Virus record (IMG/VR): IMGVR_UViG_3300007351_000041
Location: 1-33,651 of that record
DNA: 33,651 nucleotides
Direction: 5' to 3' (one strand)
From: a virus
A program made the translations under genes and the position numbers. The notes under the pieces were generated by a model, which saw only the letters and a list, made by a program, of their open reading frames with translations, ran no database searches and was not told the DNA's origin. Shown piece by piece: positions 2,559 to 31,653 of this stretch (the stretch's first letter is position 1; every line of letters begins with the position of its first letter).

Positions 2559-2796
2559 AGTAAGACGTTACTGGCGTAAGGATTTACATACTGATTTAAA
2601 AGAAAAAACAGCTGTTACAAAGGATTTCGATGATGCTATTGCTGATATTTCATCAGTTTTAAGTTTATCAAAAGCAGAAGTTTCATCTAAATTGATAGCT
2701 AAAGGTTCGTTAGAAAGCAAATACCAAGTTTGGAATCTAATAACTGGACCGGTTAATCCATTTGCTCTTAGTGCAAAAAAAACTCCATTGGAATAA
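2545..2796 (+). CDS. Hypothetical protein, last gene of the first transcription unit
   Basis: An 83-residue basic protein ('NKVRRYWRKDLHTDLKEK' at the N-terminus), mostly helical by composition, with no cysteine. It overlaps the previous gene by 14 bases, with a GGAG ribosome-binding site inside that gene. A strong terminator starts 5 bases after its stop, so it closes the operon that begins upstream of the contig. Function not recognised. Confidence 0.55.
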   Translation: MLKNKVRRYWRKDLHTDLKEKTAVTKDFDDAIADISSVLSLSKAEVSSKLIAKGSLESKYQVWNLITGPVNPFALSAKKTPLE

Positions 2797-2800
2797 ATTA

Positions 2801-2836
2801 AAACACCTTCAAGAAATTTTCTTGAAGGTGTTTTTT
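2801..2836 (+). terminator. Rho-independent terminator
   Basis: A 13-bp perfect stem, AAACACCTTCAAG at 2801-2813 and its complement at 2821-2833, with a 7-base loop, runs straight into a T tract. It lies just after the 2545-2796 gene and separates the recombinase operon from the protease unit. The T-rich sides would also allow weaker termination on the opposite strand. Confidence 0.9.
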
Positions 2837-2887
2837 CATATCAATTTATCATTTTTATAAAAATGATATCTAATTCTCGCTTTTTGT

Positions 2888-2917
2888 TTGTCTTTTTAAT
2901 CGTAATCAATTTATAAT
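2888..2917 (+). promoter_or_regulatory. Candidate sigma70-type promoter for the protease unit
   Basis: A perfect -10 box TATAAT lies at 2912-2917, with a 4/6 -35 match (TTGTCT, 2888-2893) 18 bases upstream. It sits between a terminator and the first gene of the next unit, where a promoter is expected. The 100-base leader after it contains AGAGACA near 2929 and TGTCTCT at 3020-3026 over the start codon, which could pair. The -35 is weak and AT-rich DNA gives chance matches. Confidence 0.42.
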
Positions 2918-3018
2918 AGATGTTTGTAAGAGACAATGAAGTCTTGGCGTGAGAGTTACGTTCACATTACCTAAATCTCAAAAATAAACTAGGTAGGAGA
3001 GAGAGAAAGAAAATATGA

Positions 3019-3516
3019 ATGTCTCTTTTTTGGGCGAATTTATATTCTCTGGTTATTATCGCACAAACTCAAGTTGATCCTATATCTGGAGGGGCTGGTT
3101 GGGTAGGCGCTGGTTTATTGGGGTTGGTACTTGGTTGGTTGTTACTAAAACATCTTCCAGATAAGGATAAATACATCAAGGAAATAATTAAAGAACATGG
3201 AGAAACTGTTAATAAAGTTACAGAAAAACATGAGATAACAGTTAAGGGAGTTGCTGAAAAACATGAACAATCTCTAAAGTTAGTTGCTGAAAAACATGAG
3301 TTAGCTATAAAACAAGCAGCTGAAAAACATTCAGCTGCGGTAGAGGCTGCTGCTCAAAGAACTGAACTAGCAGTAAATAAAGTTGCTGAAAAACATGCTG
3401 AAATAGTTACAGCAATGGCTACTACATTTACAGCATCGTTAGAAAATGTAGTTAATCATTGTAAAGATGAAATGGATAGAATTGCTAGTTATTGGCAACA
3501 AAGTAAAAATAATTAA
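3019..3516 (+). CDS. Membrane-anchored hendecad coiled-coil protein
   Basis: A 165-residue protein. Residues 1-16 are hydrophobic and a clear transmembrane segment lies at about 27-45 ('GLLGLVLGWLLL'). From about residue 60 onward it consists of 11-residue repeats with the core 'VAEKHE': VTEKHEITVKG, VAEKHEQSLKL, VAEKHELAIKQ, AAEKHSAAVEA, then degenerate copies to about residue 150. Eleven-residue periodicity marks a hendecad (nearly straight) coiled coil, so it is probably an oligomeric rod anchored in the inner membrane. Small phage membrane proteins in such positions are often holins or spanins, but nothing here proves that. An ATG 4 bases upstream (3015) opens a different frame that stops after 20 codons. 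It leads the unit that includes the S8 protease. Confidence 0.68.
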   Translation: MSLFWANLYSLVIIAQTQVDPISGGAGWVGAGLLGLVLGWLLLKHLPDKDKYIKEIIKEHGETVNKVTEKHEITVKGVAEKHEQSLKLVAEKHELAIKQAAEKHSAAVEAAAQRTELAVNKVAEKHAEIVTAMATTFTASLENVVNHCKDEMDRIASYWQQSKNN

Positions 3517-3528
3517 GGTATTTTAAAT

Positions 3529-4578
3529 ATGAGCGATTTTGTACTTCCACCTTTTACTGTTGAACAACAAATGATGTCTCTTACAGAGACTATGGATTGG
3601 TCTTTGTCATTATATGGAATTCCAAATGCTTGGAAGAGAAGTAGAGGTAAGGGTCAATTAGTTGCTGTTCTTGATACAGGAGTTGATAAAAGACATTATG
3701 AACATGGGGATCTTAAAAATTCAGTAGTAGCAGCTAAGGATTTTACAAATTCTAGAGTTGGTTTTTTTGATTTGAATGGACATGGGACACATACTGCTGG
3801 AACTATTGGTGCAAGAGAAGATAATAATGGTGTTGTAGGGGTGATGCCAGAATCTAGTTTGGCAATTGGTAAAGTTCTTGGTGATAGTGGTGGTGGTAGT
3901 GGTCAACAGGTTGGAGATGGTATTGATTGGTCAGTCAGTATTGGTGCTAGTGTAATAAGTTTGTCATTAGGTTCTAATTATGCTGACCCAATAATGTATC
4001 AAGCTATTAAGAGAGCAGTAGAAGCAGGATGTCATGTTATATGCGCTGCAGGTAATGAAGGTAAAATTACAGGTGAAAATACTGTGGGATATCCTGCTAG
4101 ATGGGCAGAGTGTGCAGCTGTTGGAGCAGTAGATGAAAATGGTAGAGTTGCTTCTTTTTCTTCTAGAGGTCCAGAAGTTGATATTTGTGCTCCTGGCGTC
4201 AATATATTGAGTACATATTTGAACGGTGGATATGCTAAGTTATCTGGAACAAGTATGGCAACTCCGTTTGTTTCTGGAGTTGTGGGTTTACTTTTAAGTA
4301 CTGGCGTTAAATTGTCTCCTAAAGCCTTGATTGAAATGCTTAGAAGTACTGCAAGAGCTTGGAAGCCAGGCGATGATTGTGATGGTTCGGGGGTAGGTTT
4401 GATTAATCCTGAAACGTTATTGACACCACCTCCACCTCCACCACCTCCACCTCCACCACCTCCGCCTTCTGTACCAGAACCTCCACCAAATTTGGAGATG
4501 GTTAAAATTGGTCCTTTTTCAGTTTCAGTAGAAAAAATAAGAGATAAAACTGGATTATTTATTTGTGTGGGGGGATAA
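3529..4578 (+). CDS. Subtilisin-like serine protease (S8 family) with polyproline linker
   Basis: A 349-residue protein with the complete S8 catalytic set: Asp49 in 'AVLDTGVD', His85 in 'GHGTHTAG', oxyanion Asn176 in 'CAAGNEG', and Ser242 in 'GTSMATPFVSG'. The catalytic domain fills about residues 22-297. It is followed by 14 consecutive prolines (300-313), a further 'VPEPPP', and a short tail of about 30 residues (from residue 321). There is no obvious signal peptide and only a short N-terminal stretch in place of a classical prodomain. It is therefore probably made in the cytoplasm, or acts in virions or after lysis. Subtilases are uncommon in phages, whose prohead proteases are usually of other families. 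Roles could include cleavage of phage structural proteins or of host proteins. Its stop overlaps the next start (TAATG). Confidence 0.93.
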   Translation: MSDFVLPPFTVEQQMMSLTETMDWSLSLYGIPNAWKRSRGKGQLVAVLDTGVDKRHYEHGDLKNSVVAAKDFTNSRVGFFDLNGHGTHTAGTIGAREDNNGVVGVMPESSLAIGKVLGDSGGGSGQQVGDGIDWSVSIGASVISLSLGSNYADPIMYQAIKRAVEAGCHVICAAGNEGKITGENTVGYPARWAECAAVGAVDENGRVASFSSRGPEVDICAPGVNILSTYLNGGYAKLSGTSMATPFVSGVVGLLLSTGVKLSPKALIEMLRSTARAWKPGDDCDGSGVGLINPETLLTPPPPPPPPPPPPPPSVPEPPPNLEMVKIGPFSVSVEKIRDKTGLFICVGG

Positions 4579-5367: not shown

Positions 5368-7266
5368 ATGAAGAAATATTGGAGAGTTTTGTTGTTGGCA
5401 CTGTTTACTCCTTTTTTATTGGCGTTTTCAGGAGAAAACGAGGTATCTTCTTTTTCTGGGGACAATAATAAACAGCCAAAAGTAGAAAATCAATTTGTTA
5501 AAGTTGACCAACCAATAAGTGGTCCCCCTGCTCCCAGAGTTGATGTCCCAGTTAATAATGCTGTGAGACTTTCTATTCCGTTCGATGCAGTTTCAGTTGT
5601 TCAGCAAGATGCGATTGAAGTAGAACAAAAAGATCCTTTTTCTCTCCCATTTATTCGGTGGATATGGGTTCAATCTGGAGACATAAATGACTTTCAAGCA
5701 TTATCAGACACATTGCAAAAAATCAGCAGAAGCGAAGTGCCAATACAGCCAGTCATACGGGGAATTGTCGCCAGGATTGATTTGCGGTGGTTTGCCGCAA
5801 GCAAAGAGGATCTCCAAGATTGGATCAATCTTTGGGAAAACTTTCAGTTTGATCCGTGGTTCTCAACAAACATCACACAGAATACCTTAGCATTACTATC
5901 TGAAGATTATAAGCAGAATAAGATAGTTCAGGTTTGGAAAAATAGAAGAGTTTGGGATAAAGACAAACAAATATGGGTTAATACAGGTGAGAAAGTAATT
6001 GCTGATGTTAAAATTGCTAGTTTAAAGGATGTTCTTGTAGTTCGGTCTAATGCTGATCATTTGAAAAAAAGTGGAATTGAAATGCTACAATTTGGAACCA
6101 AAACTTTGGCTCCAGTTGTAGATAGTAGGTATTTTACTGGTAGAGTATTATCTACTATTAAAGGAAAAATAAATGGAAAAGATAGTGTATTTAGTACCAT
6201 TTGGGGTGGTTTGTATTATGAGTTTTCAGGTATTAGAAAGGCGACCACTAAAGGGATCAAAAATGATTTTGATCAATTGTTGTTTGATTTAGGAGTTGGA
6301 AGTAAAGAAGAAGATTATGAACAATTGTTCGAAAGAACACGCGGTGGATTAGAAGCTGCCGGAATGTTTCATTCTAATGTCACTGGAAAACCTAGAAGAA
6401 TTATTTGGTTTCCAATAGAAAAGATGAGATTGACTCAGGGCATACCTGCAATATTTATAACTGAAGATATTAAAGATGAAGATGTAGATACTGATGCTCA
6501 TCCAATTTTAAATTTGGTGAAGTTTAAACCAGATGCATATGAAGTTATTTTTGTAAAACTAAATGGTCAACAGGGGTATGCCATATTTAATGGGAAGAAA
6601 GAGTTATTAGATGAAGCCACTCAGGATGTGGTATCAGATCACAAGATTCCTGTTCCTAATACTACTAGATTACAGTCTGCAATAAGTTGTATTAGATGTC
6701 ATGGTAGTGATGATGGTTGGAAGCCATTTTCTAATGATGTTAAAACTTTATTGTCTAGGAAGAACAATAACAATTTGTTAGATGTGTTTGGAGATACTAG
6801 TAAAAGTGAGTTGAATAAACCAATTTTTGACACATTGTTGAATATTGCTGGAAAATATGAAGGGGATCCTACTGTATTGATGATGGATTTGAGAAGAGCT
6901 TATGCTAAAGGAGTTTTAAGAGCTACTGGCCCTTGGAAAAATGATAATGGACAACTGAATACTGTTAAACTTTCTTCTGAAAGAATAGCAGCTGTATACG
7001 CAGAAGACAGGTATAATTTAATTGATGCTGAACTTGCGTTAAGATATTTAGGATATCCACAAGCTCCAAAAGGAAAAGAAGTAGAAGTTCTGAATAAAGT
7101 ATTACCACCAGTTAAATTGAATATTGGTGGAATAGTTCCTGAAGACGCGAGAATAGGAGCTTTAAAAAGAGGTATAAAGATTACACCAAGAGATTGGGCA
7201 TTTGTTTATTCTTTTGCACTAACAAGGGCAATGGAAACAGCCTCTCAAATGAAGGATAAGAAATGA
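5368..7266 (+). CDS. Exported cytochrome c-like protein with one CXXCH heme motif
   Basis: A 632-residue protein. Residues 1-20 form a signal peptide (MKKYW then a hydrophobic run), so it should be exported. A single heme-c site CIRCH lies at residues 441-445 (bases 6688-6702). It is preceded by 'AYEVIFVKLNGQQGYAIF' and 'DVVSDHKIPVPN', the pattern 'GEVIF.LPNGLQGY...IVSD...SCM.CH' that I remember from long secreted planctomycete proteins. The upstream 'IVARIDLRWF' and 'NADHLKK' segments also fit that family. If heme is attached, this needs the host's periplasmic cytochrome maturation system, and an electron-transfer or redox role follows. GAGGAGG lies only 2 bases before ATG; the frame is open upstream to 5224 without an ATG, so a longer form from a rare start is possible. 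It overlaps the next gene by 4 bases. Confidence 0.8.
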   Translation: MKKYWRVLLLALFTPFLLAFSGENEVSSFSGDNNKQPKVENQFVKVDQPISGPPAPRVDVPVNNAVRLSIPFDAVSVVQQDAIEVEQKDPFSLPFIRWIWVQSGDINDFQALSDTLQKISRSEVPIQPVIRGIVARIDLRWFAASKEDLQDWINLWENFQFDPWFSTNITQNTLALLSEDYKQNKIVQVWKNRRVWDKDKQIWVNTGEKVIADVKIASLKDVLVVRSNADHLKKSGIEMLQFGTKTLAPVVDSRYFTGRVLSTIKGKINGKDSVFSTIWGGLYYEFSGIRKATTKGIKNDFDQLLFDLGVGSKEEDYEQLFERTRGGLEAAGMFHSNVTGKPRRIIWFPIEKMRLTQGIPAIFITEDIKDEDVDTDAHPILNLVKFKPDAYEVIFVKLNGQQGYAIFNGKKELLDEATQDVVSDHKIPVPNTTRLQSAISCIRCHGSDDGWKPFSNDVKTLLSRKNNNNLLDVFGDTSKSELNKPIFDTLLNIAGKYEGDPTVLMMDLRRAYAKGVLRATGPWKNDNGQLNTVKLSSERIAAVYAEDRYNLIDAELALRYLGYPQAPKGKEVEVLNKVLPPVKLNIGGIVPEDARIGALKRGIKITPRDWAFVYSFALTRAMETASQMKDKK

Positions 7267-7640
7267 TTAATGATTGTGTTGAATGTAATGAAGTTGGTTA
7301 TTCTATTGGAAATGTATTTGTTCATTTGTCAAGTACTATGATGTTTGGGAATTATGGGTTGGGTAATATAAGTATATCGTCTAGCGATGATGAAAAGCTA
7401 AAAGTGGAGGACATTAAAAAACTTTCCCCGAAGTCAGGAGATCTTTTGGTTTTTAAGTTTAAAGATCGTGTTGAAGGTTTGTATGAAAAGCTTAGAAATC
7501 ATTTAGATGACTGGGGATTTAAAGATATACATTTTGTTATTATGATAGAGGGTAATGATGTTTCTTGTCTAGATGAGGGGGAGATGGAGAAATTTGGATG
7601 GATTCGCAAACGTGAAAATCGTGGTTTTGAATTTTTATGA
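7263..7640 (+). CDS. Hypothetical cytoplasmic protein between the two cytochrome-like genes
   Basis: A 125-residue protein whose ATG overlaps the preceding stop (ATGA). It has a CVEC pair at residues 5-8, an alternating strand/helix pattern ('SGDLLVFKF', 'HFVIMIEG'), and no signal peptide. Its coupling to the upstream gene and its place between two exported CXXCH proteins suggest a linked role, but I recognise no family. Confidence 0.6.
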   Translation: MINDCVECNEVGYSIGNVFVHLSSTMMFGNYGLGNISISSSDDEKLKVEDIKKLSPKSGDLLVFKFKDRVEGLYEKLRNHLDDWGFKDIHFVIMIEGNDVSCLDEGEMEKFGWIRKRENRGFEFL

Positions 7641-7659
7641 TCCTTATCTAGAGGTATAT

Positions 7660-8691
7660 ATGCGTTGGTTCCTTTTAGTTTTTGTAGTGTTAATTGCTAT
7701 TTTGGTTAGTATTCCTTCAGCTCAATCAGCTGAAGTAGTTAATAGTGATGGATATGTGCATGCTGATGGCTTTTATGTCAAAAATGGTGTGACTCATACT
7801 CGTGATATTGTTTGGTATAAGAAATGGGTTTGGGTTAATGCTTGTTATAAGGGTGGTTGCTATGTAAATGGTTATTGGACATACACTTGGGAATACTATT
7901 ATGAATATACTCCAGTAAAGCTGCCAGCTGCTTCTGATCCTGAATGGCGCATTAAGTTGTTAGCTATTGCTGCGGCTCGTGACAAGGCCGAAGGCAAGTT
8001 GCGTTATTATGCCCAAGAACAGAATCATTTCTTGGAAGCTGTTAATGCTTTGGGTCTTCATGGTAATTTTAGATATGAGGCTTATGGTCGTAACCCAGTA
8101 GCTCCTACTGGATATGGTAATTTACAATTATCTCATGCTGGTATAAATGGAAATACTATTTATGGATATAGCTATTCACAGGTTGCTGATGCTTACGGAC
8201 ATACTGATTTAAACGCTTTATATCAACAGTCTGGGTTCCTTACTAAGAACGCGCAGCAGCTTGCAGGACAAGCTAATAGCGAGTTTAACGCTTTAATCCA
8301 GCAGGCTGGTGGAAACGCTGCTAGGATTGCTGAGATACTTGCTAAAGGTAAGGTTGGAAGGGATGTTATCGAAAGTATCAAGGGAAGTCCAGAAACTAGA
8401 GTTGAAACAAAAGTTAATGGAACTGTAACTGTTCCAAATACTGTTAATGCGTCTAGTGATGTTGTTCAGAGTTTCTTGAAATTAAGTGGACCAGCAACAT
8501 GTGTTGCTTGTCATAGTGGAAATAAGTTGGAAGGTGGATTTGATGTTTCTAGGATTCCAACTATGGAACCACAAGAAATAATTGAAAAAGTTCTACCAAG
8601 ATTAGTGGATAAGAATGAAAAGAATAGAATGCCAAAAGGACTTCCTGCTTTAACTGGTGAACAAGTTAGACAATTTATTGGTGGAAATTAA
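7660..8691 (+). CDS. Second exported cytochrome c-like protein, C-terminal heme domain
   Basis: 343 residues from ATG 7660, chosen over an upstream in-frame start at 7573 because GAGG lies 5 bases before it and because it opens with a textbook signal peptide (MRWFLLVFVVLI...AQSA, cleavage near residue 26). The mature N-terminal part is rich in Tyr and Trp. The middle (about 88-250) is helical and Ala/Gln-rich. The C-terminus is a small class I cytochrome c domain: CVACH at residues 281-285, 'GGFDV', and Met324 in 'NRMPKG' as likely distal heme ligand. The pattern 'C.ACHSG....GGFDVS' recalls planctomycete cytochrome domains. It is encoded 19 bases after the previous gene and probably forms a functional unit with the 632-residue CXXCH protein. 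Confidence 0.82.
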   Translation: MRWFLLVFVVLIAILVSIPSAQSAEVVNSDGYVHADGFYVKNGVTHTRDIVWYKKWVWVNACYKGGCYVNGYWTYTWEYYYEYTPVKLPAASDPEWRIKLLAIAAARDKAEGKLRYYAQEQNHFLEAVNALGLHGNFRYEAYGRNPVAPTGYGNLQLSHAGINGNTIYGYSYSQVADAYGHTDLNALYQQSGFLTKNAQQLAGQANSEFNALIQQAGGNAARIAEILAKGKVGRDVIESIKGSPETRVETKVNGTVTVPNTVNASSDVVQSFLKLSGPATCVACHSGNKLEGGFDVSRIPTMEPQEIIEKVLPRLVDKNEKNRMPKGLPALTGEQVRQFIGGN

Positions 8692-11944: not shown

Positions 11945-12730
11945 ATGCCAATAATAATTAAAGTATGTGAGTTTTGCTCTGTATTATTTAATTGTCACAA
12001 TCCTAAACGTAGATTTTGCGGTCTCAAATGCAGCTCTAAATATTCAGGAAGTTTGAAAAAAGGTAAAAAGCTATCCCAAAAACATAGAGAACGTCTTAGT
12101 GTTTCTGCTAAACGTAGGAATAAATGGGTTGGAAAGGATAATCCTAATTACCAAAATAAAACGTTGAGTAGGGAGGATGTGTATAATAGATGGAAAAAGT
12201 CTATGAAAATAAGGGGCCAGCCTTGGGGAGAAAAAGAACGCAAGGAACATTCTGAAAGAATGTTAGGACCAACAAATGGAATGAGAGGAAAATCTCATAC
12301 AGATAAATACAAAAGAAATATGTCTGAATTAAAAATTCAACAATATAAGGATGGAATTGTTAAATTCAGATCTAGTCATTCTTCAAAAGCAGAATTAGAA
12401 GTAGGAGAACTATTAAATAGTTGGGGACTAGCTCCTGTTCCCCAGTTTCAAATTAGAGGATTTACATACTTTTACGACTTTTACATTCCATCTTTAAATC
12501 TAATATTGGAATTTAATGGTGATTATTGGCATGCAAACCCAAATAAATACAAGTCTGGAACTTTAATCAAATTTATGAATCAAGATTCTGTATTAGTGGA
12601 TGAAGTTTGGGAAAGAGATTCAATTAAAACAAAAACAGCTTTGGATAATGGATTTAAAATAGTTGTGTTGTGGGAGAATGAATTCATGTTAAATGGTGAG
12701 AAGGCGTTGAGGGGATTGTTAAAAATATGA
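11945..12730 (+). CDS. Free-standing homing endonuclease, Vsr-like nuclease domain (copy 1)
   Basis: A 261-residue protein. The N-terminal zinc finger uses C8, C11, C25 and C29. NUMOD3-like DNA-binding repeats follow ('LKKGKKLSQKHRERLSVSA', then 'GMRGKSHTDKYKRNMSE' near 112-128). The C-terminal nuclease (about 145-261) has 'FYDFYIPSLNLILEFNGDYW', which places Asp178 and Glu189 as in Vsr/PD-(D/E)XK enzymes, with 'RDSIKTKTALDNGFKIVVLW' as the following helix and strand. It is wedged between the phosphoesterase (0-base gap) and the HAD gene (4-base overlap). Homing endonucleases cut an allele lacking them and spread by repair. It differs from the other three endonucleases in this window in the nuclease domain. 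Confidence 0.82.
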   Translation: MPIIIKVCEFCSVLFNCHNPKRRFCGLKCSSKYSGSLKKGKKLSQKHRERLSVSAKRRNKWVGKDNPNYQNKTLSREDVYNRWKKSMKIRGQPWGEKERKEHSERMLGPTNGMRGKSHTDKYKRNMSELKIQQYKDGIVKFRSSHSSKAELEVGELLNSWGLAPVPQFQIRGFTYFYDFYIPSLNLILEFNGDYWHANPNKYKSGTLIKFMNQDSVLVDEVWERDSIKTKTALDNGFKIVVLWENEFMLNGEKALRGLLKI

Positions 12731-16023: not shown

Positions 16024-16113
16024 ATGTATTTGTTGAATAATTTGATTTTTGAAAGGCGACTGGAGGAGTTGAATATTCCAGTTTATAGAAAATGGCAGAA
16101 GATAACAGTTTAA
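16024..16113 (+). CDS. 29-residue leader peptide overlapping the terminase start
   Basis: ATG 16024 is preceded by a very strong ribosome-binding site (AAAGGAGGAGG, 16007-16017). The ORF encodes 29 residues beginning MYLLNNLIFERRLEELNIPV and ends at TAA 16111-16113, overlapping the large-terminase start (16092) by 22 bases in another frame. The terminase ATG itself has no ribosome-binding site, and TAG at 16086 blocks any earlier in-frame start. This is the geometry of a leader ORF used for translational coupling. Peptide function unknown. Confidence 0.5.
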   Translation: MYLLNNLIFERRLEELNIPVYRKWQKITV

Positions 16114-18121: not shown

Positions 18122-18814
18122 ATGTCTGAGTCTATGTTAGCGTCTGATTTGTTTGCTAAATCTCAAGGCAGTGTTAATAATGGGATTCAAAATTGTCATT
18201 GGTGTTCTGCAGCATGTGATATGACTTGGAGACATGACGATCCTCCTCCAATTCCATTTTTGAAAAATAAAAATCTAGCCAGATGTCCTGCTAATTCATT
18301 TATGTGTGTTGGGTGTTGGTTATGGCGAAGATCTAGAGTGACTGTATTCTTTCTAGATAATTCATATAAAGATAGTCAAACAGCAGCAAATCATTCTTGG
18401 TGGATAACTGACAGTGATGCCAAGGTAATAACACCCGATTGTCAAAAGTTATTGCAAGCAACTTTGTTAAAACCACCAAATAGATTTGTTCTTAGTTTGA
18501 AAACAGATCCTGTCATTCCTAATCATTTACATCTTGCTATTGCTAATGATGTTTCTATTATTGAAGCAAACACACCATTGATGTTTTCTTTCAATAATAT
18601 TGTTAGTGAATATACAGTGTATGATTTAGAAACAGCATTAAAAGATAAAGATGCGGTACGAACTCCTGGCGTTAGATTATTATTGAGTTACTTTACTCCA
18701 TGGGAGTATCCTGCTATGGATAAGAAACGTACTGCTGGAAAACCGCCCGAGATTCAGTTGTCTGCCACCACCAAGAAAATAATCACAACGTCTGGTAATA
18801 CTGCTCAAACATAA
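18122..18814 (+). CDS. Zinc-finger protein resembling Csf1 (type IV CRISPR-associated), role unknown
   Basis: 230 residues from ATG 18122, with GAGGTGG just upstream. The N-terminal zinc-binding part has CHWC (25-28), C32, C55 and CVGC (62-65), then 'HSWWITD'. The middle part 'LLKPPNRFVLSLKTD' followed by 'NHLHLAIANDVSI' recalls the Csf1 layout of zinc finger then 'LL.PP..PFV.S....... H'. This is a remembered resemblance and not a confirmed homology. No other Cas gene or repeat array is present. Residues 208-225 (PPEIQLSATTKKIITTSG) reappear in changed form at the C-terminus of the next gene. It lies directly after the terminase, so a packaging or DNA-binding role is an equally good guess. 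Confidence 0.6.
   Translation: MSESMLASDLFAKSQGSVNNGIQNCHWCSAACDMTWRHDDPPPIPFLKNKNLARCPANSFMCVGCWLWRRSRVTVFFLDNSYKDSQTAANHSWWITDSDAKVITPDCQKLLQATLLKPPNRFVLSLKTDPVIPNHLHLAIANDVSIIEANTPLMFSFNNIVSEYTVYDLETALKDKDAVRTPGVRLLLSYFTPWEYPAMDKKRTAGKPPEIQLSATTKKIITTSGNTAQT
18743..18796 (+). repeat. Tail duplication, copy A (in the zinc-finger gene)
   Basis: Eighteen codons encoding PPEIQLSATTKKIITTSG at the end of the 230-residue protein. Twelve of 18 residues match copy B at 19682-19735; the DNA has diverged more. The two copies flank the body of the homing endonuclease gene. Confidence 0.72.
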
Positions 18815-18817
18815 ATT

Positions 18818-19756
18818 ATGAATAAAAGTAAAAATTTCTTCAGAAATTGTCCCAATCCAGATAATAATTTTAACTGTAAGAATCGGATAGGACATATTTC
18901 GGAGAAAGGGATGATCTATGCTGATCAAAATAAGAGAAAATGTTCTAGTTGTAAAATGTTTAAAAATGACAAGGTTATTCAAAGTAAAAATGTTTTAAAT
19001 AAATTGTATTTGAGAAAATGTCCAAACGTAAATGGCAATCCAAACTGTTTGTTATTATTGAGTTACATATCTGAAAATAATATGTGGGTGGCTGAAGAGA
19101 TGGGAATTTTGTGTACAAGTTGTACACAAAAAAGAAATGGTAATACTAAAGGAGAAAACAATCCATTTTATGGCAAAACACATAATGAGGAAACAAGGAA
19201 TAGAATGTCTGTATTAAAGAAAAAATGTATTGTGGATGGAAGATTTGGTTTTGGGACAAATGGAGGTATATGTGGAGTACATATTTCTAGTGAGCTTCCT
19301 TTTTACAGCAGTTGTGAATTGAATTTCATATTAAACTATGAAGATCGCAAAAATTTAGTAAGAGCTGATGTTGGGATAGAACGCATGCCTATACCTTATG
19401 GTGACACAACATATCTTCCGGACTTTAAATCTAAAGACAAAGTTCCCAATGTAATTTACGAAATAAAAGAGACAGGTGTTAAAGTAAAGAAAAAGTGGAA
19501 GACGATTAAGGAAAAGCTTGTTTGTGCTGTAAACTGGTGTAAGGATCAATCAATGATTATAAAATTGGTTGAAATGCCAACTCTTAGCAAAACAAGAGTC
19601 GTTTTTCCGTTATGTAGATCTGGAGTAATATCCCTTAGAGGTAAATGGAAGAAACAATATGATGAATGGTTAAAGAATCAACCCCCCGAAGTGATGTTAT
19701 CTCAGACAACTAAAAAAGTAATTCAAATGTCTGGTGTCCCCAATGAAAAAGCTTGA
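18818..19756 (+). CDS. Free-standing homing endonuclease (copy 2), fused to a target-gene tail
   Basis: 312 residues. Two related N-terminal zinc modules: C11/C20/C42/C45 ('CPNPDNNFNC') and C68/C77/C99/C102. A NUMOD3 repeat follows ('ENNPFYGKTHNEETRNRMS', 113-131), then a PD-(D/E)XK-type nuclease with Asp202 ('LPDFKS') and Glu215/Lys217 ('YEIKE'). Residues 289-306 (PPEVMLSQTTKKVIQMSG) are not part of the enzyme but a copy of the tail of the preceding gene. The stop overlaps the next gene by 14 bases. The reading is that the enzyme gene inserted just before the last codons of the upstream gene, supplying a substitute tail and keeping the old one in frame. The opening shares a 17-base identity with copy 3 (18848-18864 and 27349-27365). 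Confidence 0.8.
   Translation: MNKSKNFFRNCPNPDNNFNCKNRIGHISEKGMIYADQNKRKCSSCKMFKNDKVIQSKNVLNKLYLRKCPNVNGNPNCLLLLSYISENNMWVAEEMGILCTSCTQKRNGNTKGENNPFYGKTHNEETRNRMSVLKKKCIVDGRFGFGTNGGICGVHISSELPFYSSCELNFILNYEDRKNLVRADVGIERMPIPYGDTTYLPDFKSKDKVPNVIYEIKETGVKVKKKWKTIKEKLVCAVNWCKDQSMIIKLVEMPTLSKTRVVFPLCRSGVISLRGKWKKQYDEWLKNQPPEVMLSQTTKKVIQMSGVPNEKA
19682..19735 (+). repeat. Tail duplication, copy B (in the homing endonuclease gene)
   Basis: Eighteen codons encoding PPEVMLSQTTKKVIQMSG, homologous to copy A at 18743-18796. This copy runs on into the overlap with the gene at 19743, which suggests that it is the original 3' end of the interrupted gene. Confidence 0.72.
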
Positions 19757-20140: not shown

Positions 20141-21886
20141 TTGGGTAGACTTGCAAATCTAATGAAGTCAGGAATAACAACTCAAAGGTATCTTGGGGTT
20201 GGTCAAAACCCACGTACGCTTCGTTCAGAAGTTGAGTTAGGCAGATCCCGTTGGCGTGAAGCATTTCATAACAAAGAAGAACCAAATAGAGAAACTCCTA
20301 AAGTAATACCTGGTGGATCTTGGGGTAGATCTTCATTATCCACGGATGCCAGTGTTCGTAGATTAGTGGAGGCAATGAGATCGCAAGCTCCCGGAGGTTG
20401 GAGCGACAACCGCTGGGAGCAATCACAACACTTCGTTGGTATTACATATGCTGCCATTCATAGAATTGGCGAGCAGATGGCACAATCTGAATTTCAAGTG
20501 TATGTTAAAGATGATAATCATCAAGATGGTAAAAGACCCGTTAAAAGAGGAGAGCCTGGTTGGGATTTAATTAAGTTGTTGGAAAAACCCAATCATGATG
20601 ATACGTTTGGTGAGATGTTATATAAGATAAATTTACAAATGGATTTAACTGGAATGTCATTAACTTGGATGGTTCCTAACGTTATGGGAATGCCAATGGA
20701 ATTGTATTCAATTCCAACTTCTATAGCTATTCCTCAACCAGCTATCAATCCAGATTATCCTGATGGATATTATAGAATCCAACCAGTATATCCATATGGA
20801 CCATTCTCTTCTTATCCTACACCTGCATCAGCTGTTGGTGCTCCAATTCCAGCACAGTGGATGCTAAGAATTAAATATCCGCATCCAATATTACCATATG
20901 ATGGATATTCTCCTCAAACAGCTATGAGGCTTCATCTTGATGAGATCGAGCAGATGGATAGAAGCCGTTGGTATAATATGAAGAGAGGTATTAGTCCTTC
21001 TGCAGTTCTTCAATTTTCAAAAGATAATGCCCAACCATTACCAGAAGAAGAAATAGCTCGTATTAGAGCAGAAATGGAAAATACATTCCAAGGTCCAGAA
21101 AATGCAGGACAATTTTATGTCGCAACGCCAGGTGCTGAGTTACAACCCTGGGGAAATAAACCCATTGATATGGATTACCAGAGTGGATGGGATCAATTGG
21201 TTTCATTCGTACTGGGCGCAGGTTTTGGCATTACTAAACCAGCTGCTGGTATGATCGAAGATTCTAGTTATTCCACTTTGTTTGCAACATTAAAACAATT
21301 ACATCTTATTACTATTGGTCCTAAATGTAATAGAATTGCTTCTAAATTTACTCGTCATCTTGCTCCGTTTTATGGTGATGATTTAATTGTTGAAATAAAA
21401 GCTCAACGAATTGATGACCATGAAGTACTTTCAGGCAAGCTTTCTCAACTGGCTGGCAATAGGGCAATGACAATTAATGAGCTTCGTAAGGCATTAGATT
21501 GGCCAATGACTGATGAAGAGTGGGGTAAAGAAAGAGTTGGTGAGCCACCTGCGCCTCCAGGTATGGAAGGAATGCCACCAGGTGGTGGAGGAATGGGTGG
21601 ATTAGAAGCTATGATGGGTGGTGGAATGCCAGGTATGGAAGGTGGTAATCCAGAAGAAATGGCTGCTCAAGGCGGAGAAGTTGATGCTCTAGGTGGAATG
21701 CCATTACCTCCTGATCTTGATGAAGAACCAACTGAAGTTACTGAATCAAGACCATTAGCTGGTAAGCTCGGACTTGGTGCATTAGGGCCGCGTAAGAGAT
21801 TCGATACTGAAGTGGTTGATATTAAAAAGAAACTTAGGGCTCGTTACAAGAAATTAGCCAAAATTAGTTCTAACGGAGTACATTAA
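20141..21886 (+). CDS. Portal protein
   Basis: 581 residues from TTG 20141. Two ribosome-binding motifs precede it: GGAGGAGGAGG (20115-20125) and GGTGAG (20131-20136); the second gives normal spacing to the TTG. The body matches HK97-type portals. A clip/stem region 'ITYAAIHRIGEQMAQSEFQV' is followed by 'LIKLLEKPN', a 'GISPSAVLQFSKDN' segment, and 'GITKPAAGMIEDSSYSTLFA' near the crown. The portal ring is the prohead vertex through which the terminase pumps DNA. The C-terminal 110 residues are Gly/Met/Pro-rich with 'PPGMEGMPPGGGGMGG', then a basic end. No head protease or capsid gene follows in the usual place. Confidence 0.88.
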   Translation: MGRLANLMKSGITTQRYLGVGQNPRTLRSEVELGRSRWREAFHNKEEPNRETPKVIPGGSWGRSSLSTDASVRRLVEAMRSQAPGGWSDNRWEQSQHFVGITYAAIHRIGEQMAQSEFQVYVKDDNHQDGKRPVKRGEPGWDLIKLLEKPNHDDTFGEMLYKINLQMDLTGMSLTWMVPNVMGMPMELYSIPTSIAIPQPAINPDYPDGYYRIQPVYPYGPFSSYPTPASAVGAPIPAQWMLRIKYPHPILPYDGYSPQTAMRLHLDEIEQMDRSRWYNMKRGISPSAVLQFSKDNAQPLPEEEIARIRAEMENTFQGPENAGQFYVATPGAELQPWGNKPIDMDYQSGWDQLVSFVLGAGFGITKPAAGMIEDSSYSTLFATLKQLHLITIGPKCNRIASKFTRHLAPFYGDDLIVEIKAQRIDDHEVLSGKLSQLAGNRAMTINELRKALDWPMTDEEWGKERVGEPPAPPGMEGMPPGGGGMGGLEAMMGGGMPGMEGGNPEEMAAQGGEVDALGGMPLPPDLDEEPTEVTESRPLAGKLGLGALGPRKRFDTEVVDIKKKLRARYKKLAKISSNGVH

Positions 21887-24385: not shown

Positions 24386-27316
24386 ATGTTAGGTCCAACA
24401 AGTTGGGAGAATACTATTCTTAGTTCACTTTCACTAACTTCTGGTCAAGTCCAGTCTGGTAATATTGGTAATAATGCTGTTACCAGTGGTAACGTTGCAT
24501 CTGGACAACTTGCTTGGGTACACCTTGGCTCTGGAGCTGTTCAATCAGGGAATATAGCTTCTGGTCAGATTCTTACGTTCCATCTTTCTAGCGGTGCTGT
24601 TCTTAGTGGTCAAATTGGTAATAATGTAGTTGTTAGTGGTAATATAGCATCTGGTCAGATATTTACCTTACACATAGCAAGTGGTGGATTATTGTCTGGA
24701 GCGTTTGGTTCTGGACAAATAGGACTTAATCATATAGCTTCTGGTGCGGTAGGAGCAGGAAGGGTTGGTAGTGGTGCAATCCAAAGCGGCCAAATAGCAA
24801 GTGGTCAAGTATTCACTCTTCATATTGCTTCTGGTGGAATAGGCTCAGGAGGAATTGGTTCTGGACAAATTGGATCAACACACCTTGCCAGTGGTTTAAT
24901 TGGTCTTGCTAGTGGTTCTGTTACCTCAGGGTTAGTAGGCAATAACACCATAAATAGTGGTAATTTATCTTCAGGCTCAGTTAGTTGGGCGCATCATAGT
25001 TCTGGAAGTGTTCGTTCTGGAAATTTATCAGATGGTTCTGTTACTTCTGGTAATATAGCATCTGGTCAATTATTCACTTTACATATAGCAAGTGGTGGAA
25101 TACTTTCTGGAGGTATTGGTTCTGGTCAGATAGGAAGACATCATTTGTCTTCAGGTTCAGTTAATTCTGGACATATTGCTAATGCTGCTGTTACAAGTGG
25201 TTCTATTGCTAGTGGTGTATTAACTGTATTTCATATTGCTAGTGGTGGTTTTGGCAGTGGTGTATTGAACAGTGGTGTTGTTGTATTAAACAATTTAGCA
25301 AGTGGTGTAGCTCTACCAGTTTCTGGTAGTGTTCAACAATTCCAATTAGGTTCCGGCGCAGTAAATTCTGGGCAAATAGCTTCAGGTGCTGTACAAGGTA
25401 GAAATGCTGGCGGAACTTACCATATTGCTTCTGGATCAATTAGTACGTTAGATATTGGTTCTGGAAGCATAGTATCTGGATTAATAGCAAGTGGCCAAAT
25501 TGGTCCAAATCATTTAGCTTCTGGTTTAATAATATCTGGTGCTTTCTTATCTGGTGGAATAACTTCTGGGAATATTAACAGCGGTCAAGTTGGATTCCCC
25601 CATCTTGCAAATAACTCAGTGTTGTCTGGAACAATCGGATCAGGTGTAATTAGTTCAATTCACCTTGCTAGTGGTTGTGTACAGTCTGGGGATATTGGAA
25701 GTGGTTCAGTGGGAGGAGCCAACCAAAGTGGAGCCAGAGGTATAGTATCAGGTTCTATTGGAACATTTGATTTAGGCTCCGGTGTTGTAACTTCTGGACA
25801 ATTGGGAGATAATGCGGTTGGTTCTGGTAATATTGGATCAGGTCAAATTGGAGCAATGCATGTTGCTAGTGGTGGTTTGTTTAGTTCTGGTTTAATTGGA
25901 ACGTATAGCATTGCTAGTGGAACGGTAGTTACTAGAGCAGGATATGTTACTCCATATAATAGTGGTTTGCTTGCAACAATAATTACCGAAGAGCCAATTT
26001 CTGGCGTAAGAGCAGTAACAATATCTCAGTCTGGCGCAGTTCGTATTGCCATGGCTTCTGTAAGTGGAAGAATGCCAGCAATTGGAATTGTTGCAGATAA
26101 TGTTGCTTCTGGTATTCAGGTTAATGTTTATTCTATAGGAGCATTCCAACTTAGTTCTGGAATGAACGATTTTAGTGGCTATTTGGGACAACCATTAGTT
26201 GTTGGTCGTTCTGGTCAAATAGTTACTTATTCTGGGGCTTGGAACTCTGGTGGATTAATGTCTGGGGACATTACTCAATTAATGGGTTCTGTTGGTGGCA
26301 ATAGTGGATTTATAGAAGTAGACACTCAACGCCCAACTGTAATTACTTCTGGTCAAATAGGCAGTGGATATCTTGGAAATGCATCTGTTTTAAGTGGTAA
26401 TCTTGGTTCTGGTCAAGTGTTTACCTTCCATATTGCTTCTGGTGGTTTACTATCAGGTTCAATTGGCTCAGGTCAAATATTTACTCTAAGTGTTGCTTCT
26501 GGCGGTTTGCTTTCTGGTGCTTATGGTTCTGGACAATTAGGTACTGCTCATATTGCTAGTGGTGGTTTAGGTAGCGGGGCAATAGGTTCTGGCCAGATAT
26601 TCACTCTTCATATAGCATCTGGCGGTATTGGTTCTGGTGGAATAGGCTCAGGTCAAATATCAACTCTACATGTAGCAAGTGGCGGATTTGGCAGTGGAGC
26701 CATTGGCTCAGGTCAAATATTCACCTTACATGTTGCTAGTGGAGGTATTTTATCTGGAGGTTTGGGTTCTGGACAAATAGGCAGAATGCATCTTAGTTCA
26801 GGATCAATCAGTTCTGGACACATTGCTAATGCTGCTGTTACATCTGGAAGTATAGCTTCTGGTGTTGCTGTAGCTTATGCTAGAATTGGATTTGATGATA
26901 CTTGGGTAGCTGGAGAAATGATTAGTGGGTTGTGCCCAGTATGTATCAATATTTCTGGTGGGAATTCGTTATTGATTGCTAATGCGGCATCTGGGTTGAG
27001 ATTACCTGCAATTGGAATTTCAATAACTAATGCTGCAAGTGGAGCTTCTGTTAGTATTGTAACAAACGGTTTGATTACCAATCTTGCAAGTGGTTTACTT
27101 TCTAGTGGTTTTAATGGAAGAAATTGTTATGTTGGTAGCGGGCTTGTAATTGATTTGTCGGGTTTTGCAGGAAATGGTTTTGGACCTTCACCAGCTGTTG
27201 CTGGTGCTTCTGGTAATATGGTTCAAAGATTAGGAGTGAAAGTATCTGGTGGAATTTTTGTTAATATAGGCGAAGTAACTTCAGGATTAATAAGTGGTTT
27301 GTTGGGGCAATTTTAA
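24386..27316 (+). CDS. Giant SG-repeat fibre protein
   Basis: 976 residues built on a decapeptide repeat that begins with SG. One pair of decamers is 'SGQIFTLHIA' then 'SGGLLSGAFG', a 20-residue super-repeat ('IASGQ(I/V)FTLHIASGG'). Repeats fill about residues 15-515 and 640-840. They alternate with two related non-repeat domains: about 520-635 ('MPAIGIVADNVASGIQVNVY') and the C-terminal 145 residues ('LPAIGISITNAASGASVSIV', 'GNMVQRLGVKVSGGIFVNIG'). The strict periodicity, high Gly/Ser and lack of Cys in the repeats suggest a trimeric beta-structured fibre. ATG 24386 has no strong ribosome-binding site; the 109-base upstream gap shows nothing convincing. Confidence 0.75.
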   Translation: MLGPTSWENTILSSLSLTSGQVQSGNIGNNAVTSGNVASGQLAWVHLGSGAVQSGNIASGQILTFHLSSGAVLSGQIGNNVVVSGNIASGQIFTLHIASGGLLSGAFGSGQIGLNHIASGAVGAGRVGSGAIQSGQIASGQVFTLHIASGGIGSGGIGSGQIGSTHLASGLIGLASGSVTSGLVGNNTINSGNLSSGSVSWAHHSSGSVRSGNLSDGSVTSGNIASGQLFTLHIASGGILSGGIGSGQIGRHHLSSGSVNSGHIANAAVTSGSIASGVLTVFHIASGGFGSGVLNSGVVVLNNLASGVALPVSGSVQQFQLGSGAVNSGQIASGAVQGRNAGGTYHIASGSISTLDIGSGSIVSGLIASGQIGPNHLASGLIISGAFLSGGITSGNINSGQVGFPHLANNSVLSGTIGSGVISSIHLASGCVQSGDIGSGSVGGANQSGARGIVSGSIGTFDLGSGVVTSGQLGDNAVGSGNIGSGQIGAMHVASGGLFSSGLIGTYSIASGTVVTRAGYVTPYNSGLLATIITEEPISGVRAVTISQSGAVRIAMASVSGRMPAIGIVADNVASGIQVNVYSIGAFQLSSGMNDFSGYLGQPLVVGRSGQIVTYSGAWNSGGLMSGDITQLMGSVGGNSGFIEVDTQRPTVITSGQIGSGYLGNASVLSGNLGSGQVFTFHIASGGLLSGSIGSGQIFTLSVASGGLLSGAYGSGQLGTAHIASGGLGSGAIGSGQIFTLHIASGGIGSGGIGSGQISTLHVASGGFGSGAIGSGQIFTLHVASGGILSGGLGSGQIGRMHLSSGSISSGHIANAAVTSGSIASGVAVAYARIGFDDTWVAGEMISGLCPVCINISGGNSLLIANAASGLRLPAIGISITNAASGASVSIVTNGLITNLASGLLSSGFNGRNCYVGSGLVIDLSGFAGNGFGPSPAVAGASGNMVQRLGVKVSGGIFVNIGEVTSGLISGLLGQF

Positions 27317-27318
27317 TT

Positions 27319-28251
27319 ATGGCTAAGAATTATTTGTTTTGTAGAAAATGTCCCAATCCAGATAACAATGAAAATTGTAAACTTTTAATTGGTTATAAAT
27401 ACGAAAATAAAATGTGGGATGCTGAGGAAAGACAAACTTTTTGTAAGAGTTGTACATTTCTGGGAAACAGGAACCCATTCTTTGGCAAGAATCACACCGA
27501 AGAAACTAAAGAAGCAATGTCTAAAATTCGTATTGATCTTTGGGAATCTGGTGTGTTTGATACACCTGAAGTTAGATTTAATATGAGTCAGTCTCATATT
27601 GGAAATAAATCTACTTCTGGTCAAGAATTATCCATAAGGCGAAGATTTGCTATTAGGAAAAGAATGATGGGTGAAAATAATCACTTTTATGGTAAAAACC
27701 ACACTCATGAATCAAGGAAAAAGATTTCTAAATCTAGAGAAGGAAAATATTTTGGTGAGAATAATCCTTTTTATGGTAGAAAACACTTAGAAGAGACTAA
27801 AGAATTATGTAGAGAAGGAGCATTAAAAAGCAAAGGATCTGGTCATGGAATAAGTGGTAAATATAATGGGCTACATTTTAGATCTACATGTGAGTTGTTG
27901 TTTTTAAAACAAAACTACACCAACACCATGGTTTCGGCAGAGGCAAAAGGATTCAGGTGTGAGTATATAGATTCTACTGGAAAATTAAGATATCATTATC
28001 CCGATTTTGTAGATGGAAATGTAGTTTATGAGATCAAACCATTTGGATGGGAAAGAGATTCAAGGTGTGTTGATGTACCATTGAAAAGAAAAGCAGCTGA
28101 AAAAATAATTACTGATAAAGGATTTAAATATGTTTTTATTGAAATGAAATGTATTTCCAAGTCTGAGGTGTTTGCTTTATTCGCGCAAGGTAAAATTGAT
28201 CTGGACACCAAGTGGAAAAAACAGTATTATGAAAAACTTGGAGTTTATTAA
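27319..28251 (+). CDS. Free-standing homing endonuclease (copy 3)
   Basis: 310 residues. The zinc module C11/C20/C42/C45 is nearly the same as in copy 2. Three NUMOD3-like repeats follow: 'RNPFFGKNHTEETKEAMSK', 'ENNHFYGKNHTHESRKKIS', 'ENNPFYGRKHLEETKELC'. The nuclease has 'YHYPDFVDGNVVYEIKPFG' with Asp229, Glu238 and Lys240. It sits 2 bases after the fibre stop, and its own stop overlaps the next start, so it is inserted precisely between two genes. The 'KWKKQY' end is also found in copy 2. Confidence 0.82.
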   Translation: MAKNYLFCRKCPNPDNNENCKLLIGYKYENKMWDAEERQTFCKSCTFLGNRNPFFGKNHTEETKEAMSKIRIDLWESGVFDTPEVRFNMSQSHIGNKSTSGQELSIRRRFAIRKRMMGENNHFYGKNHTHESRKKISKSREGKYFGENNPFYGRKHLEETKELCREGALKSKGSGHGISGKYNGLHFRSTCELLFLKQNYTNTMVSAEAKGFRCEYIDSTGKLRYHYPDFVDGNVVYEIKPFGWERDSRCVDVPLKRKAAEKIITDKGFKYVFIEMKCISKSEVFALFAQGKIDLDTKWKKQYYEKLGVY

Positions 28252-29239: not shown

Positions 29240-29454
29240 CTCTTCCAGAATTCAAAAAATCAATAGATGGTAAGAAGTTGAAACAAGCAACTTCCTTGGA
29301 GCAAACAAATTTTAGAAATGGTGCCAAGGTTGAAGGATTACAGTATTTCTTTAGTGCCATTACTAAAGATGATCAAGTTGTTTTTGCTGAAGGAGGTTCT
29401 TGGGATGATGTGTTTTCAAAGGTCCCAGATTGGTTGAAACGAGAAAAGAAATGA
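29236..29454 (+). CDS. 72-residue hypothetical protein
   Basis: Overlaps the previous gene by 4 bases and the next by 4. Basic N-terminus ('LPEFKKSIDGKKLKQATSLE'), then a small strand-rich part with two aromatic clusters. No motif recognised. Operon position supports coding. Confidence 0.5.
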   Translation: MTLPEFKKSIDGKKLKQATSLEQTNFRNGAKVEGLQYFFSAITKDDQVVFAEGGSWDDVFSKVPDWLKREKK

Positions 29455-30149
29455 TTTCATTCAGTAGTCCATTTTCTGGTGGTGGCAGAGGCAAAAAAGC
29501 TCTAAAGCTTCGATTGAAGTCTTTGTCTAAATATAGATCTAAAAATAATCCAGAGAACACTGATGCAGTTCAACCAAATCCAGAAGAAGCAATGCAGGTA
29601 ACGGCTAATCCACAAGATATGCAAAATGTAGAACAATCTACTAATATGGCTCCTCCAGGTGGACAACCTCAAATGCAAGAAGGAATGCCTCCTGGACAAC
29701 AAGGTGCTCCTCCCGCAGGACCAGGAGAAGCTCCTATGGACCCTGCTCAAAACCAACAACCACAACAGCAGCCAAAACCTAAGAAAGAACCCCAATATAC
29801 TCCAATGGAGGTAAATAGGGAAGAGGTTTCAGGAGCCCAATCTGGTTGGACAATGTTACATGATATCAAAGATGTATTTGATAATGATATGAATTTAGCA
29901 GTAGCTACTTATGCATTAGATCAATTTGAACAAGATCCCAAAGAAGCAGGGAAGCACATTGGGATAATGTTAGCATTATCGCCTTATTGGGGTAAAAAGT
30001 ATTCTGGAGAAGGTGTAGATCAAGTCAGAGTGTTAGATTTGATTAGAAAACAAGGTGGAGACAAAGCTAAGAAGTTTATAGATGAAATACGAAAAGCCTA
30101 TGTTGCTTATGAACCAAGTAAATTTACTTTGGCTACTATAAAAGATTGA
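29451..30149 (+). CDS. Basic-motif plus Pro/Gln-rich protein
   Basis: 232 residues from ATG 29451 (overlapping the previous stop); the in-frame TTG at 29430 is less likely. The N-terminus 'GRGKKALKLRLKSLSKYRSK' is the same kind of basic helix seen at 28511 and 32477. A P/Q/M-rich low-complexity linker (about 40-115) leads to a C-terminal helical domain of about 115 residues ('GWTMLHDIKDVFDNDMNLAV', 'HIGIMLALSPYWGKKYSGEG'). Function unknown; the shared N-terminus suggests a common partner or targeting signal. Confidence 0.55.
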   Translation: MISFSSPFSGGGRGKKALKLRLKSLSKYRSKNNPENTDAVQPNPEEAMQVTANPQDMQNVEQSTNMAPPGGQPQMQEGMPPGQQGAPPAGPGEAPMDPAQNQQPQQQPKPKKEPQYTPMEVNREEVSGAQSGWTMLHDIKDVFDNDMNLAVATYALDQFEQDPKEAGKHIGIMLALSPYWGKKYSGEGVDQVRVLDLIRKQGGDKAKKFIDEIRKAYVAYEPSKFTLATIKD

Positions 30150-30164
30150 TAAAAGGTGAATTAA

Positions 30165-31001
30165 ATGGCTGGTGAAATAAAACATTGTGAAAAATGTAAT
30201 TGTGAACATGATGGTTCTTATGGCTCAGGTAGATTTTGCTCTAAACATTGCGCCTATGGTAGAAATGTGAATGGAAATAAGAATCCCATGTATGGTCAGA
30301 CAGTATATGAGATTTGGGTAAATAAGTATGGTAAAGAAGTTGCGAACATAAAATGGAGAAACTGTGTGATTTCTCAAAAGGGTAAGGGAACTGGCCCCAG
30401 GCCTAATCAGTCTGTTAAGGTTTCTGGTTGTTTAAATCCTATGTGGGGTCGTACACATTCTGATGGGGCAAAAGCTGCAATATCCCATAAAAATACAGGC
30501 AGAAAACATTCAATTAAGTCTAACATTCAAAAATCTATATCTGGAAAAAGAGCTTATGCTGAAGGTAGATTTAAGTTTTCCGGAGAGAAAAGATCAATAA
30601 GAGGATATTGGAAAGGATTGTATTATGGAAGTACATCTGAATTGATGAGAATGATGAATCATCCAAATTTATCTTTATTGAAAAGAGGCCCATCGATATC
30701 ATATGAGTGGTTTGATGGTTCTCACCACACATATTTATCAGATTTCTTGAATGTGTTGTCAAACACAATTGAAGAAATAAAATATCCAGGCAAACAACTA
30801 TCTGAGTTAGAGCAACTTAAAGTTGAAGCAGGTAAAAAATATGCAAAAGAGAATGGTTTAAATTATAATGTGTTGTACGAACATTCAATACCCAAGGAAG
30901 AAATGTTTATTTTAAGGAAACATTATATGGTTACTTTAGATTCTAAACATGAAACAGAATATCAAATATGGTTGGAAAGGAGAAACAAACGTGGCTGGTG
31001 A
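30165..31001 (+). CDS. Free-standing homing endonuclease (copy 4), inserted at a gene start
   Basis: 278 residues. Zinc module C8/C11/C25/C29; NUMOD3-like repeats ('GNKNPMYGQTVYEI', 'CLNPMWGRTHSDGAKAAIS'); nuclease 'YLSDFLNVLSNTIEEIKYPG' with Asp193, Glu204 and Lys206, the same layout as copies 2 and 3. Its first five codons (MAGEI) copy the first codons of the downstream gene (VAGEI), and its last codons and stop are read from the second copy of that 13-base repeat. So the endonuclease gene lies between two copies of the target's start region and uses the original start. Confidence 0.82.
   Translation: MAGEIKHCEKCNCEHDGSYGSGRFCSKHCAYGRNVNGNKNPMYGQTVYEIWVNKYGKEVANIKWRNCVISQKGKGTGPRPNQSVKVSGCLNPMWGRTHSDGAKAAISHKNTGRKHSIKSNIQKSISGKRAYAEGRFKFSGEKRSIRGYWKGLYYGSTSELMRMMNHPNLSLLKRGPSISYEWFDGSHHTYLSDFLNVLSNTIEEIKYPGKQLSELEQLKVEAGKKYAKENGLNYNVLYEHSIPKEEMFILRKHYMVTLDSKHETEYQIWLERRNKRGW
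30166..30178 (+). repeat. Insertion-site direct repeat, left copy
   Basis: TGGCTGGTGAAAT is identical to 30992-31004. It is the original 5' end of the interrupted gene and now supplies the start codons of the endonuclease. Confidence 0.75.
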
Positions 31002-31653
31002 AATTGCCGCAGATGCTAGTTCAAGTCTTGTATTATATTCCCAGATTAGAAATAGAACTTCGGGGTTCATATTCAATATAAGTAGTGGACAGTTTGAAAC
31101 ATATTCTAGCGCAAGTGGTAATCAAGCTGCTTATGCCCTTTCTATGAGTGAGCAAGGTAGTTGTGGTCACTATGTGGGAAATGCCCCAAGCACATTACCT
31201 GCTGGTGTGTTTGATATCACATGTCGGCAAAGGGTAAATGCTTGGTATGCTGAAACAGATTCCTTGGTGGCCAACGGGGAACTTCAATGGAATACTTCAG
31301 TTGCAGTGCCATTATCTAATTTACCTGCGAGTGGAGTAATTTCAGAAGTTAGAATGACTCGTGGTGTAATGGTACAGAATTTTGGAATATTTCTTAAATC
31401 AAGTGCCGACCATCTCACCAATTTTACCAGTGGAAATGTTAGCGGTCAGATTGCTAGAGATGGAGGTCTTTTTGGTGCTTTGCAATCAGGTGGTTTTACA
31501 GAGACAGGTCTTGGATCTTACGTTGTTACGCTTACATCGGGCGATTTACTTGCAAACACTGTAAGACTTTATTTTTCTGCAAATGGCATTAGTGGTGGTA
31601 CAAGCGATCCTCTTACTTTATCATTCGTATTACAAAGAAGTTCAGGACAGTAA
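30991..31653 (+). CDS. Probable virion surface or neck protein (220 aa), GTG start
   Basis: Read from GTG 30991, 8 bases after AAGGAG (30977-30982); an in-frame ATG at 30949 is deep inside the endonuclease gene and gives an unrelated N-terminus. The protein is beta-rich, Ser/Gly-rich ('SLVLYSQIRNRTSGFIFNIS', 'GLGSYVVTLTSGDLLANTVR'), with no Cys pattern beyond two single residues. This style is common in phage head-tail or baseplate proteins. The endonuclease upstream has replaced its original start (ATG 30165) with a GTG copy. Confidence 0.6.
   Translation: MAGEIAADASSSLVLYSQIRNRTSGFIFNISSGQFETYSSASGNQAAYALSMSEQGSCGHYVGNAPSTLPAGVFDITCRQRVNAWYAETDSLVANGELQWNTSVAVPLSNLPASGVISEVRMTRGVMVQNFGIFLKSSADHLTNFTSGNVSGQIARDGGLFGALQSGGFTETGLGSYVVTLTSGDLLANTVRLYFSANGISGGTSDPLTLSFVLQRSSGQ
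30992..31004 (+). repeat. Insertion-site direct repeat, right copy
   Basis: TGGCTGGTGAAAT, identical to 30166-30178. It contains the endonuclease stop TGA (30999-31001) and, in another frame, codons 1-5 of the downstream gene. Confidence 0.75.

Follow-up and report, generated by a model that had tools for sequence, protein, structure and literature searches.

A 13-base repeat at two successive gene starts of a phage as a possible mark of homing endonuclease insertion

A 13-base sequence, TGGCTGGTGAAAT, was found at the starts of two successive phage genes, where it may mark the two edges of an inserted homing endonuclease. The window (the whole analysed stretch of 33,651 nucleotides) was contig C14 of a 52-contig, 1.4-Mb metagenome assembly. 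The repeat copies were exact and lay on the plus strand, at 30166-30178 and 30992-31004. The left copy formed the first codons of an endonuclease gene, ATG (30165) GCT GGT GAA ATA, or MAGEI, opening a plus-strand ORF of 278 amino acids (30165-31001). The right copy formed the start of the downstream gene, the putative target, with GTG (30991) GCT GGT GAA ATT, or VAGEI, opening a plus-strand frame of 220 amino acids (30991-31653). It also contained the endonuclease stop codon (TGA, 30999-31001), in a frame different from that of the target. The original prediction had described AGEI as encoded in both genes and the stop as lying in the right copy, and the sequence agreed with it. The insert measured 826 bases, nearly all occupied by the endonuclease ORF. 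Our preferred explanation, to which we give about an even chance, is that the repeat marks both edges of a homing endonuclease that one-sided homing placed at the beginning of the 30991 gene.

The window was phage DNA, with a terminase large subunit gene at 16092, a portal gene at 20141 and densely packed genes on a single strand. No tRNA was found in it. Besides the 30165 gene it held three endonuclease genes of the same sort (at 11945, 18818 and 27319), and others were present on contigs C1 and C29 of the assembly. The third family member (27319-28251, plus strand) was recognised by Pfam. The fourth (11945-12730, plus strand) combined a zinc finger and a weak NUMOD3 match with a DUF559/MTES_1575-like nuclease, according to profile searches. 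The edge test detected no edge duplication at either of these two genes. The protein encoded at 24386-27316 (976 residues) consisted mostly of SG-(Q/N)-I-xSG repeats of about 30 residues. Its VQQFQLGSGAVNSG stretch was identical in a protein encoded on C1 (85.7 kb), so C1 and the window may both derive from a single large phage. A subtilisin-like protease was encoded at 3529-4578 (Peptidase_S8, 2e-53). The phage-borne proteins encoded at 5368-7266 and 7573-8691 carried CxxCH cytochrome-c motifs (CIRCHGSDD and CVACHSGNKLEGGFD) and had no Pfam matches at 0.01; the second is of a type known from Planctomycetes. The structural-region genes 28511, 29451 and 32426 had in common an N-terminal R-x-(R/K)-K...R(L/I)K(S/A)L motif (RTRKEIIRRLKSL, RGKKALKLRLKSL and RSRKSLLNRIKAL), which might serve as a shared signal for virion targeting or processing. 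The contig end (33612-33651) was Illumina adapter sequence (agatcggaagagcgtcgtgtagggaaagagtgtagatctc), and the last 40 or so bases are therefore an artefact, as is the end of the 32426 frame.

Both starts were preceded by ribosome-binding-like motifs on the plus strand, AAAGGTG (30152-30158) 6 bases before the endonuclease ATG and AAAGGAG (30976-30982) 8 bases before the GTG, the latter within the endonuclease reading frame. It had been proposed that the target now starts from GTG with a new ribosome-binding site. AAAGGAG does precede this codon, but the GTG, a rare start in the window, is only the probable start of the target. There is also an in-frame ATG at 30949, which lacks a clear ribosome-binding site. 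The test for a duplicated ribosome-binding region gave no significant result, since 10% of window pairs scored as well over the 18 upstream bases.

Outside the repetitive 24386 gene, the AT-rich window contained 41 exact repeats of at least 13 bases, where a first-order Markov model predicted about 19 (about 1.8 of them within 1.5 kb). A 13-base repeat is therefore unremarkable by itself, and this one may be the best of many. The numbers lend some weight to coincidence, in which two adjacent genes simply have the same first codons. We nevertheless regard coincidence as improbable, as the upper gene is a homing-type endonuclease and the register of the repeat at both start codons was unmatched among control genes. 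The latter was established by comparing each gene start in the window and in the fetched loci with every start codon near the end of the same gene. None of 2,587 control genes shared 13 bases forward from the start, as the 30165 endonuclease did; with both directions summed, in-register matches of at least 13 bases occurred in 4 of the 2,587. The unusual feature is thus the register at two start codons, the repeat itself being common.

The 30165 protein had zinc-finger cysteines at its N-terminus and matched an endonuclease family of PHROG (15427, 5e-11). Its Pfam scores were under the cut-offs both for the TnsA-like N domain (20.8 against 26.5 bits) and for NUMOD3 (17.7 against 20.4); the NUMOD3 cut-off was exceeded by two paralogues, 18818 and 27319. 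Residues E159, D193, E204 and K206 were invariant in 24 sequences, as expected of a PD-(D/E)XK site. Residues 145-275 of the AF2 model had a pLDDT of about 95. The best solved fold match was Tn7 TnsA, with a Foldseek probability of 0.98 but an E-value of 0.013, and with a VIA Z of 7.6 (next unrelated chain, 5.5); the I-Bth0305I domain appeared in the structural comparison at Z 4.1. Profiles, model and conserved residues together give moderate support to a zinc-finger/NUMOD3 protein with a TnsA-like PD-(D/E)XK domain, a predicted nuclease. No Rfam match at E <= 1 was found between 17900 and 31800 that would point to intron RNA around the ORF, and the protein is probably a free-standing homing endonuclease.

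Relatives of the target and of the upstream gene were searched for in viral contigs, phages, genome contigs, 99 related genomes and 379 genomes of the phylum. Neither the target gene nor the upstream neighbour (29451-30149, plus strand, 232 amino acids) had relatives beyond the window itself. An uninterrupted gene of the MAGEIAADASS type behind a 29451 homologue, which the original prediction had led us to look for, was not found in these collections. The degenerate pattern of such a start (ATG GCN GGN GAR ATH GCN GCN GAY GCN) had no match in the viral contigs. Its eight matches in genome contigs were all in unrelated, G+C-rich genomes and were rejected. Used as an anchor, the portal recovered distant portals only, and the terminase recovered 80 loci (at most 41% identity), none of which shared the target or the upstream gene. 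Because these two genes lack detectable relatives, there is no empty site with which to compare 30165. If the start was displaced, the empty allele would read ATGGCTGGTGAAATTGCCGCAGATGC directly after AAAGGTGAATTAA. If the left copy is native, endonuclease-free relatives would keep the ATGGCTGGTGAAAT copy upstream at the 30991 homologue.

The distance from the initial methionine to the first cysteine (Met plus six residues) was the same in the 30165 endonuclease as in its relatives (MAGEIKHC compared with MAKNYLFC and MTSFKRKC). It thus had no N-terminal extension, in contrast to the fused endonuclease of a T4-like phage described below (43 codons) and to the 18818 endonuclease, extended at its C-terminus by about 25 residues. 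This makes a simple short duplication, or joining by microhomology close to the ATG, a serious rival, although we hold it to be rather unlikely. Illegitimate recombination at the 13-base match, or at a shorter one such as ATGGC, would have left the repeat as a scar, with neither copy a foreign start. The copies are identical and end abruptly, as such a scar would, and the 27319 paralogue opens with ATGGCT, as does the target. The divergent copies at a second gene edge in the window and the different allele in the T4-like phage, both presented below, are left unexplained by it. The unextended N-terminus would also suit an origin of the MAGEI start in the endonuclease, the target having acquired it secondarily, for example through recombination of one start region with the other, and lost its own start. 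We consider this very unlikely, as none of the endonuclease relatives in the 24-sequence set begins with MAGEI and the direction was the opposite in the T4-like phage.

A duplication at a gene end near 18743 and 19682, also noted in the original prediction, was upheld at the protein level. The tail of the post-terminase gene (18122-18814, plus strand; KPPEIQLSATTKKIITTSG at 18740-18796) matched that of the second family endonuclease (18818-19756, plus strand; QPPEVMLSQTTKKVIQMSG at 19679-19735) in 12 of 19 amino acids and 38 of 57 nucleotides. None of 20,000 shuffles was as good, and it ranked first among about 1,330 adjacent tail pairs, endonuclease and control, from the window and the fetched loci. 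The two copies had diverged. Paralogues of the 18818 endonuclease end about 25 residues sooner, which indicates that its C-terminal extension is foreign to the endonuclease. The copy borne by the endonuclease still overlaps the following gene's start. Judged from this junction, it would be the native tail, now displaced, and the tail of the 18122 gene would probably be the incoming one. In addition, an exact 15-base repeat, TTATTATTGAGTTAC, occurred at 18677 (near the tail of the 18122 gene) and at 19052 (in the endonuclease behind it), encoding LLLSY in the same frame; it may be either chance or a trace of the target.

We fetched 80 IMG/VR loci whose endonucleases belonged to the NUMOD3 set and tested all their edges. 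Edge duplication was present in about 3 of the 85 endonuclease family genes tested in these loci, a frequency that does not bear out the common strategy that had been proposed. The clearest start duplication, independent of that at 30165, was in the T4-like phage L152 (IMGVR_UViG_3300016667_000555), at an occupied portal start (2590-4300). Its endonuclease, which carried NUMOD3 and matched GIY-YIG weakly, opened with 43-44 codons of the T4-type portal gene and was followed by the full portal gene with a different start. In L182 (1-3960) and L183 the portal start was empty, with the portal gene directly behind a tail-tube-like gene. Their portal start was 92% identical in nucleotides and 95% in amino acids to the fused copy in L152, against 77% and 87% for the restored copy; the remaining portal protein was 95% identical between L152 and L182/L183. 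In L152 the native start has therefore stayed with the endonuclease, and the portal gene now has a foreign one. In L159 (1578-3952) an endonuclease 51% identical to that of L152 (104 of 203 residues) sat cleanly between the tail-tube-like and portal genes and had an ATG start of its own (MNEAFVYCW). The L152 fusion point corresponded to the third codon of the L159 endonuclease (EAFVYCW), and the L159 arrangement is that expected of a donor. Presence at this one site was sporadic, with the endonuclease in L152 and L159 and without it in L182 and L183. Five relatives of the L152 enzyme, GIY-YIG proteins of named phages, occupied ordinary intergenic places, according to their annotation. Elsewhere in the survey, L109/L111 had 10 bases (ATGTCTGC and the two preceding) that occurred both where the endonuclease begins and at an ATG close to its end. 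In-register candidates in L130, L120, L112 and L156 were discounted as short AT-rich matches of the ATGAAA type.

The series of empty, donor-like and occupied sites (L182/L183, L159, L152) suggests one-sided homing. In such an event, the donor phage would carry the endonuclease just upstream of an intact target homologue, and the recipient would be cut near the start of its own target gene. The downstream side would be repaired by homology, importing the donor gene start (at 30991, the GTG with AAAGGAG) together with the endonuclease. The upstream side would be joined over very short homology, so that the recipient ATG and first codons would stay, in frame with the endonuclease, and both proteins could still be made. 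The tail case at 18740/19679 would be the mirror image, with homology upstream and end joining downstream. The general scheme would thus be homology repair on the gene-body side and end joining on the other. The outcome, a native start fused to the endonuclease and a foreign start restored, is seen in the sequences of L152, and the repair route is what the series would imply. Thus the proposal that the endonuclease takes the native start while the target restarts held for L152 against L182/L183. At 30165, where no uninterrupted relative was found and the endonuclease shows no N-terminal extension, the left copy may be the native one; cleavage near the junction and one-sided repair are likewise presumed there.

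One-sided homing at 30165 is favoured by the 13-base in-register match at adjacent starts, by the rarity of GTG starts in the window and by an intact endonuclease with PD-(D/E)XK residues. The tail duplication and the T4-like series also count in its favour. Against it, the evidence there consists of 13 bases, no empty-site relative was found, and the parallel endonuclease in L152 and L159 is GIY-YIG-like whereas that at 30165 is PD-(D/E)XK. Import of a donor end is consistent with the tail and portal copies having diverged, and the arrival of the donor's own gene end with the endonuclease explains these cases better than the earlier idea of a repair restoring the damaged edge. The 13-mers, being identical, give import no such support; a direct duplication or microhomology accounts for their identity at least as well as a divergent donor does.

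A broader reading, which we offer as possible though doubtful, is that phage homing endonucleases enter essential genes time and again at their coding ends, start or tail. They would do so because the adjacent donor end travels along as a recoded, probably cut-resistant replacement, and the displaced native start would supply translation of the endonuclease. The process would be the counterpart, in nature, of engineered home-and-rescue drives. Phage homing endonucleases would then need neither intron nor intein to settle inside essential genes; the replacement gene end would travel with the endonuclease, and the stolen start would drive its translation. One would expect gene ends beside endonucleases to carry short foreign segments, and some endonucleases to be chimeras open to misreading by automatic annotation. 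With the L152/L182/L159 series, this idea can be tested directly.

Restriction-like folds are used for homing by I-Ssp6803I, a PD-(D/E)XK homing endonuclease, and by I-Bth0305I, which is EDxHD/Vsr-like. Unlike both of these intron-encoded enzymes, the 30165 endonuclease had no detected intron, and its best fold match was Tn7 TnsA. We found no report of gene-start replacement by an endonuclease in the open-access literature searched. The free-standing homing endonucleases of T4-like phages (seg, mob) are likewise intron-less genes inserted among phage genes; they lie between essential genes, and intronless homing drags flanking DNA along (PMC2988022). The cases in the available part of that article are intergenic or gene-splitting (mobE in Aeh1 nrdA), and this part describes no second copy of a gene edge, nor does it contain the stem "duplicat". 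In fungal mitochondria, mobile endonuclease ORFs replace gene ends (Allomyces atp6; Glomus atp6, atp9, cox2 and nad3), bringing a foreign gene end while the native end stays on the far side and the copies diverge (PMC3630166). The second copy was likewise divergent in the 18818 tails and in L152, the latter with uninterrupted relatives, whereas the two 13-base copies at 30165 were identical. The 18818 tail case matches the fungal one directly. The fungal cases are carboxy-terminal only ("n-terminal" is absent from PMC3630166), in contrast to the gene start affected in phages at 30165 and, clearly, in L152. Edge duplication as at 18818, at 30165 and in L152 would be a rare variant (about 3 of 85) of fungal mitochondrial gene-end replacement, apparently new relative to the fungal cases in that a gene start can be replaced, and in a phage.
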